NCBI RefSeq assembly: GCF_004337475.1
Contig: NZ_SJZJ01000007.1
Coordinates: 62,001-126,000 of the forward strand
Direction: 5' to 3'
Length of the DNA: 64,000 nt
DNA from: Nocardioides jejuensis
GTDB lineage: Bacteria; Actinomycetota; Actinomycetes; Propionibacteriales; Nocardioidaceae
The notes beneath the pieces were generated by a model. It worked only from the letters and a program-made list of their open reading frames with translations. It was not told where the DNA came from and made no database searches. Shown here piece by piece: positions 23,982 through 62,938 of the stretch; position 1 is the stretch's first letter; each line of letters starts with the position of its first letter. The position numbers and the translations under genes were made by a program.

Positions 23982-24057
23982 TGCTGTAACGCGGTGTCCT
24001 CGTCGCCGCCGCGGGGTTGCAACCCCGCAGTCGCGACGAGAACACCGCGTTACAGCA
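23982..24057. repeat. Solo copy of a 76-bp near-perfect palindrome
   Basis: The left arm begins TGCTGTAACGCGGTGT and the right arm is its complement, meeting at GGGGTT-GC-AACCCC. Only three or four of 37 arm positions mismatch. Related palindromes flank the AbiEi-like gene (30639-30713 and 31828-31892). It lies between hppA and a methyltransferase gene on the same strand and could also act as a terminator. Confidence 0.85.
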
Positions 24058-29012: not shown

Positions 29013-29288
29013 TCACGCCTGCTGCTGCCGGATCGTCATGCTCCGCAGCGGTCCCCCGAGGACTGCGCTGATCCAGCAGAGGTTGAAGGCGCCCGCCGAG
29101 AGCGGCACGACGCTCCACGCCATGAGGGCGATGCCGAGGCCGCTGTCGCGCAGCAGGAAGCCGACGACCAGGAACGTCGTCCCCGCCGTCAGCCGGAAGC
29201 CACGGCCGGTGGGGGAGTTGACCCACCGGCTGAAGCCGGTGCAGTTGAAGCGCTCGGCGAGCGAGGGGCAGGTGAGCGTCGTGGACAT
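29013..29288 (-). CDS. DUF2892 (YgaP-like) small membrane protein
   Basis: A 91-aa protein. It starts MSTTLTCPSLAERFNCTGFS, has NSPTGRGFRLTAGTTFLVVG and two hydrophobic segments (about 38-50 and 55-80) typical of DUF2892, which is often the membrane anchor of rhodanese or sulfur enzymes. It follows the DUF4242 gene by six bp on the same strand, so the two form an operon, and it is convergent with the preceding membrane protein gene. Confidence 0.7.
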   Translation of the reverse strand: MSTTLTCPSLAERFNCTGFSRWVNSPTGRGFRLTAGTTFLVVGFLLRDSGLGIALMAWSVVPLSAGAFNLCWISAVLGGPLRSMTIRQQQA

Positions 29289-29294
29289 GGAGGC

Positions 29295-29549
29295 TCAGCT
29301 GCCTTCGGAGACTTCGTAGATCTTGTCGGCGACGAGGCCGTGCGCCTCGCGGTGGACGGTGATGGCGGCGTCGGCGTCGGGCGCCTCGACCAGGCAGAAG
29401 ACCTTGCGGCTGGCCTCGTCGACCCAGTAGCTGCGGTACGTGACGCCGTACTGGTCCTGGATGGCGACGTCAGCGGCGTGGGCGTTGGCGACGTCGGCGG
29501 CGGTGGCGCCTTCGGGAAGTTCCTCGTGGACGTCCATGAAGAGAGGCAT
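29295..29549 (-). CDS. DUF4242 family protein (SCO4226-like)
   Basis: An 84-aa ferredoxin-like-fold protein: MPLFMDVHEELPEGATAADV, YRSYWVDEASRKVFCLVEAP and ITVHREAHGLVADKIYEV are the conserved parts. Streptomyces SCO4226 of this family is reported to bind nickel; the His residues in DVHEEL and VHREAHG fit metal binding. ATG 29547-29549 has GAAGGAGAAAT upstream. It is first in a two-gene operon with the DUF2892 gene and divergent from an AraC-type regulator 46 bp away, which may control it. Confidence 0.78.
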   Translation of the reverse strand: MPLFMDVHEELPEGATAADVANAHAADVAIQDQYGVTYRSYWVDEASRKVFCLVEAPDADAAITVHREAHGLVADKIYEVSEGS

Positions 29550-29595
29550 CGGATTTCTCCTTCGGTGAAGTGGGCGGGGTGACACACTCACTGTC

Positions 29596-30645
29596 ATGCC
29601 GTCTGCGCTCCACGGCCATGACCGGGACGCCGCCGCTGATGACCGTTCGCCCGGGGCACCCGGGCCGGATCTGGCGACTGCGCTGGGACGCCTGCGCCTG
29701 GAGGGCGCAATCTTCCTCCGGGGTGTCTACAGCGAGGCCTGGGCCTACGAGTCGGTCCCGGGTGCGGACGCACGCGCGCTGCTCGCCCCAGGCGCGCCAC
29801 GGATGCTCCTCTTCCATCTCGTCGTCCACGGCCGGACCTGGGTCGAGGTCGACGGCGAGGAGCGCCTGTACGCCGGGGCGGGCGACGTCATCGTCCTGCC
29901 GTACGGCGACACGCACCGCATGGGTGGCTCTGCTGCAGCGCCCTGCACCCCGTTGCGGACGTTGCTGGATCCGCCGCCCTGGGAGGCCATGCCCGTGGTG
30001 CGGCACGGGGGCGGAGGCGCCGCGACGGAGCTGGTGTGCGGCTACCTGGCCTGCGACGACGTGCTCTTCGACCCGCAGTTCGGTGCGCTACCGCGGGTCT
30101 TCGTGGTCCAGCCTCCGGAGGGCCCGGCACGCGACTGGGTGCGGGCCGGCATCGACTACGCCCTGGCCCAGACGTCGATGGCCGAGGATCACCTCGAGGG
30201 CCCGGTCGGCATCCCGCAGGCCCTGCTGGTGGAGGTGCTGACCCTCCACCTCGCGTCGGCCCCGGCGTCGCAGCGTGGCCTGCTCGCGGGTCTGCGTGAC
30301 CCGGTGACGGGTCCGGCGCTGGCAGCGATCCACCGCTCGCCGGCCGAACGCTGGACGGTCGAGGCGCTGGCCCGCGAAGCTGCCGTCTCGACAACCGTGC
30401 TCGACGAGCGCTTCCGGTCGGTGCTCGGCGTGGCTCCGATCCGCTACCTCGCCGACTGGCGCATGCACGTCGCCGGCGACCTGCTCCGTGACTCGGACCT
30501 GCCCGTCGTCGCCGTCGCGCGCCGCGTGGGCTACGAAGCCGAGGAGGCGTTCAGCCGCGCCTTCAAGCGGGCGCGCGGCGAGGCGCCGAGCGTGTGGCGT
30601 ACCCACCGCGGCACCTGGGTGCCGACCCCGCGCGGCCCGCTGTAA
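29596..30645 (+). CDS. AraC-family transcriptional regulator
   Basis: A 349-aa regulator with an N-terminal cupin ligand domain (DVIVLPYGDTHRM lies in the barrel) and a C-terminal double helix-turn-helix (AREAAVSTTVLDERFRSVLG; VARRVGYEAEEAFSRAFKRA). The class resembles AraC_binding/cupin_6 regulators of stress or oxidoreductase genes. It is divergent from the DUF4242–DUF2892 pair. Unusually, its last sense codon and TAA stop (CTGTAA) are the first bases of a palindromic repeat that flanks the next gene, so its native C-terminus may have been replaced. Confidence 0.85.
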   Translation: MPSALHGHDRDAAADDRSPGAPGPDLATALGRLRLEGAIFLRGVYSEAWAYESVPGADARALLAPGAPRMLLFHLVVHGRTWVEVDGEERLYAGAGDVIVLPYGDTHRMGGSAAAPCTPLRTLLDPPPWEAMPVVRHGGGGAATELVCGYLACDDVLFDPQFGALPRVFVVQPPEGPARDWVRAGIDYALAQTSMAEDHLEGPVGIPQALLVEVLTLHLASAPASQRGLLAGLRDPVTGPALAAIHRSPAERWTVEALAREAAVSTTVLDERFRSVLGVAPIRYLADWRMHVAGDLLRDSDLPVVAVARRVGYEAEEAFSRAFKRARGEAPSVWRTHRGTWVPTPRGPL

Positions 30646-30713
30646 CGCGGTGTTCTCGTAGCGACTGCGGGGTTGCAGCGGCGCGGCTGCTACGACAGCC
30701 CCGCGGTGGGTGC
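30639..30713. repeat. Left palindromic repeat of the AbiEi-like unit
   Basis: It begins GCTGTAACGCGGTGTTCTCG, identical to one arm of the solo repeat at 23982-24057. The inner stem TCGTAGC/GCTACGA is kept, and the inner-facing outer arm is degraded. The outermost six bases encode the end of the AraC gene. Confidence 0.8.
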
Positions 30714-30801
30714 GTTGGTCGAGCGCACGCGCCGCGGCTTCTGTCCACAGCATCGGCGCCACCGCCAGCAGCTCACGGCAGAACTGGTCACGCTGACGTG
30801 C

Positions 30802-31818
30802 ATGTACGCCGACATCCGCGCCCTCATGGCCCAGCAACACGGACTCATCGCACGACGGCAGGCAGTGAGCCGCGGGCTGCCTCCCGGTGACGTCGACAGG
30901 CTGGTTCGCACGGGGGCGTGGGTTGCCGTGCGGCGGGGTGTCTATGCCGAAGCGGCGCTCTGGTCGGAGCTGGACCCGCGGCGCGGTCGTCCGTTGCTGG
31001 TCGCACGGGCCGTCACCTTGAGCGCGCACAAGCCCCATGTGTGGAGTCACGACACGGCCGGGCACGCGTGGGGGTTGGCGATGCTGGATCCGGCAACCTC
31101 CCTGACGCACGTGACGCGCCGTGATGTTCGTGGCGATCGCACCGACTCGGGAGTGAAGCATCACGGTGCGGCGTTCGATCCGGGACAGGTGGTGCAGGTC
31201 GATGGAGCCAGAGTGCTCGACCTGGCGCGGACTGCCGTCGACATCGGCCGCGAGCACGGCTTCGCCCACGGACTGGTCGCGTGCGACAGCGCGCTGGCTG
31301 CAGGCGCAACCCGCGCCGAGCTGGTGTCGGCACTCGCCACCATGGCGTGCTGGTCGGGCACGGTTGCCGCACGCGCCGCAGTGGAGATTGCCGATGCCGA
31401 TGCTGATGGTCCAGGAGAATCGCTCACCCGCGGGCTGTTGATCCGAGCCGGCGAGCCCGAGGTCGAGACCCAATTCGGTCTCCGACGGGACGGCCGGACC
31501 GTCTGGTGCGACCTTCGGGTCCGGCGGCACATCATCGAGTTCGACGGCCGCGTGAAGTACCGCTCGATCTCCAACGGAGGGGTGTCGGGTGATCCCGAGG
31601 TGGCCCTCTGGGAGGAGAAGAAAAGGCAGGACTTCGTCCAGTCGTTCCGCCTCGGAGTGTCGCGGGTGACGTGGGCGCATGTGCAGCCGGATACGTGGCG
31701 CGCGACGGGGGAGCGTCTGGTTCGGGAGATCGCTGCAACCGATCGTCTCTTTGGTGGTGACATCGCCGACCTGTCGCCGTTCATCCTGCCCAAGTCGGCA
31801 CGCCGGCGGGCCGCCTGA
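30802..31818 (+). CDS. AbiEi-type winged-helix protein fused to PD-(D/E)XK (DUF559/Vsr-like) nuclease domain
   Basis: A 338-aa protein. The N-terminal ~60 residues (ALMAQQHGLIARRQAVSRGL … GAWVAVRRGVYA) match the AbiEi_4 antitoxin winged helix. A middle DNA-binding-like region follows (60-200). The C-terminal ~110 residues look like a DUF559/Vsr endonuclease fold: Asp237 (CDLRV), Glu246-x-Asp248 and Lys252 (IIEFDGRVKY), then EEKKRQD. No toxin gene of the AbiEii type is adjacent, so it is not a normal type IV toxin-antitoxin pair. It is bounded on both sides by copies of one palindrome. ATG 30802 has no clear ribosome site. Confidence 0.75.
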   Translation: MYADIRALMAQQHGLIARRQAVSRGLPPGDVDRLVRTGAWVAVRRGVYAEAALWSELDPRRGRPLLVARAVTLSAHKPHVWSHDTAGHAWGLAMLDPATSLTHVTRRDVRGDRTDSGVKHHGAAFDPGQVVQVDGARVLDLARTAVDIGREHGFAHGLVACDSALAAGATRAELVSALATMACWSGTVAARAAVEIADADADGPGESLTRGLLIRAGEPEVETQFGLRRDGRTVWCDLRVRRHIIEFDGRVKYRSISNGGVSGDPEVALWEEKKRQDFVQSFRLGVSRVTWAHVQPDTWRATGERLVREIAATDRLFGGDIADLSPFILPKSARRRAA

Positions 31819-31827
31819 ACCCGACCG

Positions 31828-31892
31828 CGGGTTTGTCGCCGCGGGTGCGGGGCTGCAACACCGCGACCGCGGCGAGAACACCGCGTTACAGC
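31828..31892. repeat. Right palindromic repeat of the AbiEi-like unit
   Basis: It ends CGAGAACACCGCGTTACAGC, the exact complement of the first 20 bases of the left copy. Over 39 outward-facing bases the two ends match at 33. An inner stem (GTCGCCGCGG with CCGCGGCGA) remains. Confidence 0.8.
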
Positions 31893-31948
31893 CGGCGGGG
31901 CCGCGGACGGATCGGCCCACGTCGGCGCCCCCACCTAAGGTGTACGAC

Positions 31949-32605
31949 GTGACTGCCGGCGTCTTCTCACCCACGGGCCTCTTCGTCTGCTTCGAGGGCG
32001 GCGAGGGCGGCGGCAAGTCGACCCAGTCGGGCCTGCTGCGCGACTGGCTCGAGACCGAGGGCCACACGGTCGTCCTCACCCGGCAGCCCGGTGGCACCAC
32101 CGTCGGGCAGCGGGTCCGCGAGATCGTGCTGAGCCCGGAGACGGGCGAGCTGAGCAACCGCACCGAGGTCCTCCTCTACGCCGCCGACAAGGCCGAGCAC
32201 GTCGACACCGTCGTCCTCCCGGCGCTGGCCCGGGGCGAGGTCGTCATCACTGACCGCTACGTCGACTCCGCCCTCGCCTACCAGGGCGCGGGGCGCACCG
32301 AGGCGGTCGCTGAGGTCGAGCAGGTCAACCGCTGGGCGACCCGTGACCTGCGGCCGCACCTGACCGTCGTCCTCGATCTGGAGCCGCAGGCGGGGCTGGG
32401 GCGGTTCGAGGAGCGCGACCGGATCGAGGGGGAATCGCTGGAGTTCCACCAGCGGGTGCGCCAGGCGTTCCTCGACATGGCCGCGGCCGACCCCGAGCAC
32501 TACCTCGTTCTCGACGCGCGCGACACGATCGAGTCGATCCACGGGCAGATCCGCTCCCGCGTCGCCAGCGTGCTGGCCCTTCGCGCCGGTCAGTTCAGCG
32601 CATGA
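31949..32605 (+). CDS. tmk: Thymidylate kinase
   Basis: A 218-aa enzyme phosphorylating dTMP to dTDP. P-loop GGEGGGKST is near 17-25, the DR(Y/H) motif is ITDRYVDSALAYQG, and a lid segment FEERDRIEGE follows. GTG 31949 is chosen because TAAGGT (31936-31941) lies seven nt upstream, giving a leaderless start; GTG 31940 overlaps that box. The stop overlaps holB (ATGA), the usual tmk–holB pair of this group. Confidence 0.95.
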   Translation: MTAGVFSPTGLFVCFEGGEGGGKSTQSGLLRDWLETEGHTVVLTRQPGGTTVGQRVREIVLSPETGELSNRTEVLLYAADKAEHVDTVVLPALARGEVVITDRYVDSALAYQGAGRTEAVAEVEQVNRWATRDLRPHLTVVLDLEPQAGLGRFEERDRIEGESLEFHQRVRQAFLDMAAADPEHYLVLDARDTIESIHGQIRSRVASVLALRAGQFSA

Positions 32606-61879: not shown

Positions 61880-62938
61880 ATGAGTGAGGCAGCGGCGGAG
61901 ACCGCGGGCGAGGGTCAGCCGCAGGTCGTCGACTGGGAGTACGCCGTCAAGCTCGGCACGAAGTTCGCGGGCGAAGGCCCCGTGGTGAGCCGGGCCGAAG
62001 CGGACGCCGCCGTGGCCGAGCTGCGTGCCGGCGCCAACCGCTCGACCGGCCTCGTCGCGGAGTTCACCGGCCTCGTGGCGCCCGAGAACACCGCCCCCGT
62101 CCTCGTGGTCGACCGCGGTGGCTGGGTGCAGGCCAACGCCGACAGCTTTGCGGTCCTGCTCGACCCTCTGATGTCGAAGGTGGCACGCGGCAAGCAGCCC
62201 GGCCCGGCCGCCCGCGCCGTCGGGGGTCGCATCGCGGGGGCCGAGCTCGGCCTGCTGCTCGGTTTCATGGGCTCCAAGGTGCTCGGCCAGTTCGACCCCT
62301 TCTCCCCGCCGGCAGGTCGACTCCTGCTGGTGGCGCCCAACGTGGTGCACATCGAGCGCGAGCTCGGCGCCGACCCCACCGACTTCCGTCTCTGGGTCTG
62401 CCTCCACGAGGAGACCCATCGCGTGCAGTTCACCGCCGTCCCCTGGATGCGTGACCACATCCGCTCCCAGGTCCAGGCGCTGTCGGACACCGTCGACCCG
62501 TCCCGCATGTGGCAGGACATCGCCTCCGGTGTCTCCCGCATGGTCAAGGGCGAAGGCGGCAGCATCGCCGAGCTGATGAGCTCCCCGGCACAGCGCGAGA
62601 TCATCGACCGCGTCACCGGCGTCATGTCGCTGCTGGAGGGCCACGCCGACGTCGTCATGGACGGCGTCGGGCCCGAGGTGATCCCCTCGGTCGCGGACAT
62701 CCGCCGCAAGTTCACCGAACGCCGCGGCGGCGTCGGCGTACTCGACAAGGTCCTGCGTCGCCTGCTCGGCCTCGACGCCAAGATGGCGCAGTACCGCGAC
62801 GGTGCCGTCTTCGTCCGCCACGCCGTCGACACGGTCGGTATGGAGGGCTTCAACGCCGTCTGGACCTCGCCCGAGACGCTGCCGTCGAAGGCCGAGATCC
62901 ACGACCCCGCCGCGTGGGTGAAGCGCGTCCACGGCTGA
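61880..62938 (+). CDS. Zinc-dependent metallopeptidase-like protein (DUF2342)
   Basis: A 352-aa protein with the zincin motif HEETH (His176, Glu177, His180) in VCLHEETHRVQF and a downstream LEGHADVVMDGVG segment that may supply the third ligand. The family is annotated as 'coenzyme F420 biosynthesis associated' or minimal gluzincin, but no substrate is established. ATG 61880 is seven nt after TACGCT (61867-61872), so it is leaderless. Its stop shares one base with the tilS start. Confidence 0.86.
   Translation: MSEAAAETAGEGQPQVVDWEYAVKLGTKFAGEGPVVSRAEADAAVAELRAGANRSTGLVAEFTGLVAPENTAPVLVVDRGGWVQANADSFAVLLDPLMSKVARGKQPGPAARAVGGRIAGAELGLLLGFMGSKVLGQFDPFSPPAGRLLLVAPNVVHIERELGADPTDFRLWVCLHEETHRVQFTAVPWMRDHIRSQVQALSDTVDPSRMWQDIASGVSRMVKGEGGSIAELMSSPAQREIIDRVTGVMSLLEGHADVVMDGVGPEVIPSVADIRRKFTERRGGVGVLDKVLRRLLGLDAKMAQYRDGAVFVRHAVDTVGMEGFNAVWTSPETLPSKAEIHDPAAWVKRVHG

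Follow-up and report, generated by a model that had tools for sequence, protein, structure and literature searches.

An AbiEi-like nuclease gene between inverted palindromes in Nocardioides jejuensis: a candidate counterpart of REP-RAYT systems in Actinomycetota

Why should a single gene for an AbiEi-like protein joined to a restriction-fold nuclease stand between two palindromes that are inverted copies of each other? The locus was found in Nocardioides jejuensis, in a stretch of 64,000 nucleotides (positions 62,001 to 126,000 of contig NZ_SJZJ01000007.1) that is here called the window. The window coordinates are those of contig C7 minus 62000, and the genome (G000) is 3.25 Mb in size. A palindrome of ~70 nt bounds the one gene on either side, the same palindrome is scattered in gene-free form, and the palindrome sequence is lineage-specific. 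The gene and its palindrome probably constitute a two-part selfish or semi-domesticated system, which works in the manner of the repetitive extragenic palindromes (REPs) and their REP-associated tyrosine transposases (RAYTs) with an unrelated enzyme.

The inverted pair was verified by reading the bases that the initial annotation had pointed out. Positions 30639-30658 are the reverse complement of 31873-31892 with an identity of 20/20, and 33/39 bases agree over the first 39. The pair can be extended to 30630-30710 and 31821-31901 (81 nt, 77% complementary) and is the longest inverted pair within 30400-32200. The right palindrome was determined to fold better than its shuffled counterparts (z -3.0), whereas the left palindrome alone folds no better than shuffles (z -0.27), and its inner arm therefore looks decayed. 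The three parts of the unit are as follows.

30641..30706, no strand: left palindrome of the unit, with the outer end TGTAACGCGGTGTT; inverted relative to the right palindrome, with an apparently decayed inner arm
30802..31818, + strand: gene for the AbiEi-like region and Vsr/EDxHD-type nuclease, 338 aa from the ATG
31826..31890, no strand: right palindrome of the unit, the inverted and better-folding copy of the left

The reading frame of the 338-aa protein is open already from a TTG at 30673, and the TAA within the left palindrome (30643-30645) doubles as the stop codon of the upstream AraC-type frame.

The association of gene and palindrome was assessed at homologous loci. Homologs at E <= 1e-20 are present in 100 of the 118 Nocardioides genomes, with 1-4 matches per positive genome. 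The 97 loci that were compared comprise 5 from the genome of the window, 29 from the genus search, 3 from named Nocardioides, and 60 that were additionally fetched. The upstream flank was locally aligned with the reverse complement of the downstream flank, and a pair was called at a score of at least 40. Inverted flank pairs were obtained at 85/97 homologous loci and at 1/344 other genes in the same stretches; in either orientation, the corresponding numbers are 89/97 and 4/344. As in all of our genus-level tests, the loci and genomes share ancestry and are not independent. The initial annotation had counted the palindromes as part of the unit by inference, and had looked to homologs that lack them as the contrary outcome; the repeats accompany the gene at 89 of the 97 loci. 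Across the phylum, matches at E <= 1e-15 were obtained in 68/246 genomes, and flank pairs with a score of at least 40 were found at 16/29 of the loci listed (12 of them inverted) compared to 0/812 mismatched flank pairs.

The genome of the window contains five genes of this family, and the other four encode proteins that are 23-44% identical to the window protein. All five are bracketed, each by a repeat of its own, and the pair at locus L002 is in direct orientation. A profile search of the same genome gave further family matches on contigs C21, C5, and C34. Among distant AbiEi-nuclease paralogs in other genomes, L224 (G059) and L229 and L233 (G042) have short tandem-like repeats that are inverted across the gene, with no single long palindrome.

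The palindromes are also dispersed without the gene. The palindrome of the window unit has 8 solo copies in its own genome, one of which is inside the window. The palindrome of paralog L003 is unlike that of the window and is built of repeated TGACAGTTT; its 57 matches fall into 29 places by our grouping, and 27 of these places are not at the gene (weakest E 0.45, with some contig-end fragments included). Copies of the L003 palindrome sit at the ends of contigs C2, C15, C17, C26, and C39, and these repeats therefore probably break the assembly. The solo copies found in the window are listed below.

23985..24054, no strand: solo copy of the palindrome of the unit, without a gene, 6.6 kb from the unit (contig C7:85980-86056)
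59640..59725, no strand: solo copy of the different, TGACAGTTT-type palindrome, whose owner is paralog L003 on contig C13 (C7:121640-121725)

In addition, positions 62083-62095 of the window match the palindrome outer end with one mismatch. A comparison of the window and four loci with Rfam (gathering threshold) gave a tRNA and nothing else.

For the genus, a strict pattern was defined as TGTAAC-N5-GTT followed after 30-60 nt by its mirror image. This palindrome was found in 59/118 genomes at 1-31 copies per positive genome, and the mirrored control pattern in 0/118. The subfamily-1 gene, taken as a match of at least about 140 bits in the genus search (79 genomes), is present in 56/59 of the palindrome-bearing and 23/59 of the palindrome-free genomes (Fisher 4e-11, uncorrected for kinship).

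The five bases between TGTAAC and GTT were left free by the search, which fixed the bases on either side, and were compared at the 30 of the 97 loci where both flanking palindromes are complete. The agreement between species is 0.53, 0.93, 0.48, 0.34, and 0.28 for the successive positions of N5. The pairing of the two arms within one palindrome is 1.0, 1.0, 1.0, 0.8, and 0.75. When the two palindromes that flank one gene are compared, the agreement is 1.0, 1.0, 1.0, 0.93, and 0.93 in direct and 1.0, 1.0, 1.0, 0.83, and 0.70 in inverted alignment. This is the pattern expected of a recognition sequence that co-evolves, and the agreement also owes something to the common descent of copies in the same genome.

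The solo sites were also placed relative to genes. By an estimate of reading frames from the GC content of third codon positions (GC3), the neighbors of 68 solo sites in 9 genomes are convergent at 29, co-directional at 35, and divergent at 4, and a GC3-rich frame has its stop no more than 120 nt from the palindrome on 64/136 sides (median 21 nt). The possibility that the TAA of the palindrome is a favored stop for the upstream gene was rejected on the counts of 30/68 in frame versus 29 and 31 in the shifted frames and 42-45 at ~30 nt upstream.

Three palindrome populations deserve separate description. G047 has the most strict palindromes (31), and about 12 of the 20 that were fetched (L270-L289) lie inside a longer repeat, with up to 200 nt shared upstream and other inverted repeats. 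The gene of G047 (C1:5051992-5053006) is split over two overlapping frames that cover residues 1-200 and 199-338, which may represent a broken gene, recoding, or a sequencing error. The subfamily-1 gene of G115 is likewise in two pieces (C1:3932473-3933284), and 7 strict palindromes are still present there. The palindromes of G114 (L290-L306) are a mosaic of two arm types, where some have two identical arms and most have one of each, an arrangement that recalls REP doublets.

The protein encoded between the palindromes was examined by family and by fold. AbiEi_4 is the sole Pfam family above the cut-off for the window protein, at the N-terminus, and the AbiEi models of PADLOC match the protein as well. 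An AlphaFold2 model was constructed from a 21-sequence alignment with a mean predicted local distance difference test score of 93.5. In a fold search with this model, residues 1-198 (approximately) were found to resemble the AbiEi antitoxin 6y8q (Z 10.7, root-mean-square deviation 5.9 over 172) and Rv2827c (Z 9.2). The region of about residues 203-315 resembles the catalytic domain of I-Bth0305I (3r3p; Z 11.1, root-mean-square deviation 2.2 over 96/97), a Neisseria endonuclease-like protein (Z 9.8), and Vsr (1cw0; Z 9.5), and the score for the TnsA fold is at most 6.8. The modeled fold thus supports the assignment of the C-terminal part as a Vsr/EDxHD-type nuclease domain. E206, D237, E246, and R275 are invariant in 27 family members, and Q224, D248, and K252 are nearly so.

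At E <= 0.01, AbiEi_4 was matched by 21 of these 27 members, and MTES_1575, DUF559, and CMD by one each; there is no transposase family among the Pfam matches, and no NCBIfam family is matched by any of the 27. The fold search also turned up no tyrosine transposase, which is not evidence of absence. The fusion proposed in the initial annotation, of an AbiEi region with a Vsr/DUF559-like nuclease, is thus supported for AbiEi_4 by Pfam and for Vsr/EDxHD by fold; DUF559 (PF04480) is not matched by the window protein, and the single member of alignment A2 that does match has an E of 6e-5. That annotation had also reported no toxin partner, and none was found beside the gene. The upstream neighbor is an AraC-type regulator and the downstream neighbor is the gene called tmk in the annotation, with no AbiEii toxin gene adjacent. 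The tmk protein was matched once each in 116/118 genomes of the genus.

Relatives were compared for the palindromes and for the gene. Two of the 17 solo copies fetched from G114 (25 strict palindromes in total) were looked up in seven relatives. Solo L290 is absent in 7/7, and its flanks are just 7-15 nt apart in four of them. In G014, a solo copy close to the gene locus has no counterpart in G033 or G086, and G083 has a different insert of 1.1 kb there. The sharing of solo sites in G001 and G114 was dropped as a measure of turnover, because the values of at least 4/15 and at least 4/17 are lower bounds only; they draw on 17 of the 18 palindromes of G001, two of which are at the gene locus, and on 17 of the 25 of G114.

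The 97 genes are concentrated at few host sites, with 31 at A, 15 at B, 8 at C, 7 at D, 6 at E, and 5 at F, and the remainder are paired or single. On a quick maximum-likelihood gene tree, the distribution of the six site labels takes 5 changes to explain, which is the minimum possible for six labels, and the gene is therefore mostly inherited in place. The orientation relative to the host neighbors has changed at least 5 times at site A, where 8/320 orientation links are inconsistent, and at least 2 times at site B. The gene is less conserved than its neighbors in 535/543 same-site pairs, which are not independent (A, 364/365; B, 99/104; C, 28/28; D, 20/21; E, 14/15; F, 10/10). The site labels used for the tree and for this comparison precede a correction of the coordinates of L089. 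The suggestion of a mobile or selfish unit is supported with one correction: lone palindromes differ between relatives at the two sites read, and the gene itself does not jump freely, with few differences in site and repeated inversion.

On the tree, the window copy falls beside L066 and close to the genes of site E, but it occupies its own place. The region upstream of tmk (~1.5 kb, and 338 nt in one) was read in the 29 relatives that are closest by tmk among the 116 matching genomes, and the gene was found in none; the fixation between araC and tmk that the initial annotation had offered as a sign of ordinary inheritance was thus not encountered. The clean empty site that it had hoped for was not seen for the gene-bearing unit in these tmk-region relatives. 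G104, the nearest by tmk, is without a ~2.6-kb block at about 29258-31861 that includes the AraC-type gene (the right edge is uncertain), and because this larger block is missing, the junction is uninformative for an exact insertion. A search with the flanks of L105 in 9 genomes gave no match.

The closest parallel to these observations is found in the REP-RAYT systems. In one report, these consist of a single gene with two inverted flanking palindromes and dispersed cognate solo copies, the palindromes being specific to the gene lineage, and the RAYT genes are described as seldom seen changing place and as evolving faster than their neighbors (PMC2817692). The present system shares the inverted flanking palindromes, the dispersed lineage-specific solo copies, and a gene that rarely moves and evolves fast with REP/REPIN-RAYT as portrayed there, and the layout likened to REP-RAYT in the initial annotation is thereby borne out. 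The tag here is TGTAAC-N5-GTT, which is neither of the REP tags GTAG and CGTC given in a second report (PMC3733652). Positive genomes have fewer copies here (1-31 by the strict pattern), the gene changes orientation and occupies several sites, and flanking of the RAYT kind is usual but not obligate, since 8/97 loci are without any pair. RAYTs (TnpA-REP) are tyrosine transposases related to IS200/IS605. By analogy, the system described here would work like REP-RAYT but is no member of it, because the enzyme is AbiEi-like with a restriction-fold nuclease of the Vsr/EDxHD type.

Other known systems share single features with this one. I-Bth0305I, an EDxHD homing endonuclease, and Vsr appear to have the same catalytic-domain fold as the model (Z 11.1 and 9.5, respectively); here, the domain is joined to an AbiEi-like region and is free-standing, with its own flanking palindromes and no sign of homing at the 68 solo sites compared. 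The N-terminal half is like the AbiEi antitoxin of AbiE, a type IV toxin-antitoxin system (AbiEi_4, 6y8q, Rv2827c), from which the present system differs in the fused nuclease domain and in that no AbiEii toxin gene was found adjacent. As with miniature inverted-repeat transposable elements and small insertion sequences, noncoding palindromic copies share the ends of the gene-bearing unit; unlike them, no target-site duplication was seen by eye at the two polymorphic solo sites, the gene rarely differs in place, and the ends of the unit are whole palindromes. A Vsr-type nuclease fused to HEPN and winged helices has been described as MTES_1575, and palindromes are not mentioned in the available part of that paper (PMC3710099). 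No description of an AbiEi-nuclease paired with palindromes was found in searches of an open-access library, and subscription papers may have one.

A mechanism can be proposed on this basis. A dimer of the enzyme would bind both ends of the palindrome (each TGTAAC-N5-GTT in the subfamily of the window) through the AbiEi-like region. I-Bth0305I, the nearest structural relative, is described as dimerizing on a target of nearly 60 bp (PMC3943268), which is about the length of the palindrome. The nuclease domains would nick or cut the palindrome as a duplex, as a cruciform, or as a single-strand hairpin at the replication fork, and the cut, followed by host repair or copying, would occasionally place a copy of the palindrome into another intergenic region. 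When both flanking palindromes are engaged, the gene between them would invert or, rarely, move. The enzyme and its N5 "address" would co-evolve, which would lead to a palindrome population specific to each genome and to several gene-palindrome pairs side by side.

A number of observations weigh against this reading. Eight loci lack a flank pair (L072, L079, L093, L110, L111, L121, L140, and L145). At L121, the right copy was lost through a deletion with untidy edges, on which ground a clean excision at site C was rejected, and at L140 the flank contains runs of N (assembly gaps). No detectable pair was found at 13/29 of the phylum-wide loci, and none was found for the paralog on contig C21 of the window's own genome. 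G017, G018, and G042 have 9, 3, and 9 strict TGTAAC palindromes, and the homologs examined there are flanked otherwise or not at all; these palindromes may be orphan populations after gene loss or may have another helper. Six of the 20 copies fetched from G047 are identical, yet they are embedded in a longer repeat and are therefore not independent jumps, and a recent burst of identical copies was rejected for this reason. In the 17 G114 copies, two-sided changes occur in 4/26 predicted pairs and the covariation term is slightly unfavorable (+0.53), so that covariation alone is no proof of selection on pairing. Solo L305 of G114 is present in 7/7 relatives. At the G014 solo site, G034 has unrelated or decayed sequence, and a loss elsewhere is therefore as possible as a gain. 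The edges of both polymorphic solo sites are untidy, and the target-site duplication that the initial annotation had proposed to look for was not seen by eye at either. The differing sites of the gene would be explained by moves and equally by old duplications with losses.

The same evidence can be held against other explanations. The AbiEi antitoxins of AbiE systems are autoregulators, and the palindromes could accordingly be operators through which the AbiEi-like region would control the expression of its own gene and of a dispersed regulon, with the nuclease serving, for example, in defense and the palindromes being spread otherwise. The motifs do resemble paired short palindromes (TAAC-N5-GTTA here and the repeated TGACAGTTT in the L003 family). 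A copy is found downstream of the gene, however, and not just upstream, the neighbors of the solo sites are divergent in just 4/68, unlike those of promoter operators, and the G114 solo L290 is absent from 7 relatives; we consider this explanation unlikely. It is distinctly less easy to credit a homing element, in which the nuclease would cut solo palindromes and repair would copy the gene in between two regenerated palindromes. None of the 68 solo sites (a limited sample from 9 genomes) shares both host neighbors with any of the 97 gene loci, 13 being shared on one side, and the gene, which for the most part stays in place as it is inherited, is low in copy number (1-4 matches at E <= 1e-20 where present). 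What speaks for homing is that the model is most similar in fold to I-Bth0305I, an EDxHD homing endonuclease whose target of nearly 60 bp is close to the palindrome length, and that insertion in either orientation would account for the flips.

AbiEi-type regions and Vsr-type nucleases both occur in conflict systems. A defense or addiction device, in which the nuclease would attack foreign DNA and its own palindromes would act as decoys or self-marks, would be in keeping with this and with the PADLOC matches to AbiEi, and the conflict setting of the nuclease also appears in PMC3710099. No toxin partner was found, and defense alone leaves the matched flanks and the inversions unexplained, so we regard such a device as very improbable. 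Ordinary bidirectional terminators of transcription that chance to adjoin the gene would often be located near 3' ends, as the solo palindromes are (64/136 sides, median 21 nt). Such terminators would have to account for a palindrome that is common to both flanks and to the solo copies and whose sequence is species-specific, when 343/344 control genes have no inverted pair with a score of at least 40, and there is next to no likelihood that this explanation is correct.

We therefore return to the REP-RAYT-like pair of enzyme and palindrome. On balance, we lean toward the view that palindrome spreading of the REP-RAYT kind arose a second time, in the Actinomycetota, by means of a Vsr/EDxHD nuclease with an AbiEi-type region, that several pairs with distinct addresses are maintained per genome, and that the enzyme both spreads the palindromes and flips its own gene. 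For REP elements, which are intergenic repeats of wide occurrence, the way in which a population of palindromes is kept up by a single enzyme of vertical descent is not settled. If the view is correct, an independent system with different chemistry would reveal the essentials, namely, a flanking pair, an address, a vertically inherited gene, and a mobile palindrome. The natural variation of N5 would supply ready matched and mismatched pairs of enzyme and substrate for the study of specificity and possibly a programmable nicking module. It would also assign a function to a large family of AbiEi-nucleases of the Actinomycetota that has no name in NCBIfam, and it would provide an explanation for many lineage-specific palindromes of this phylum.

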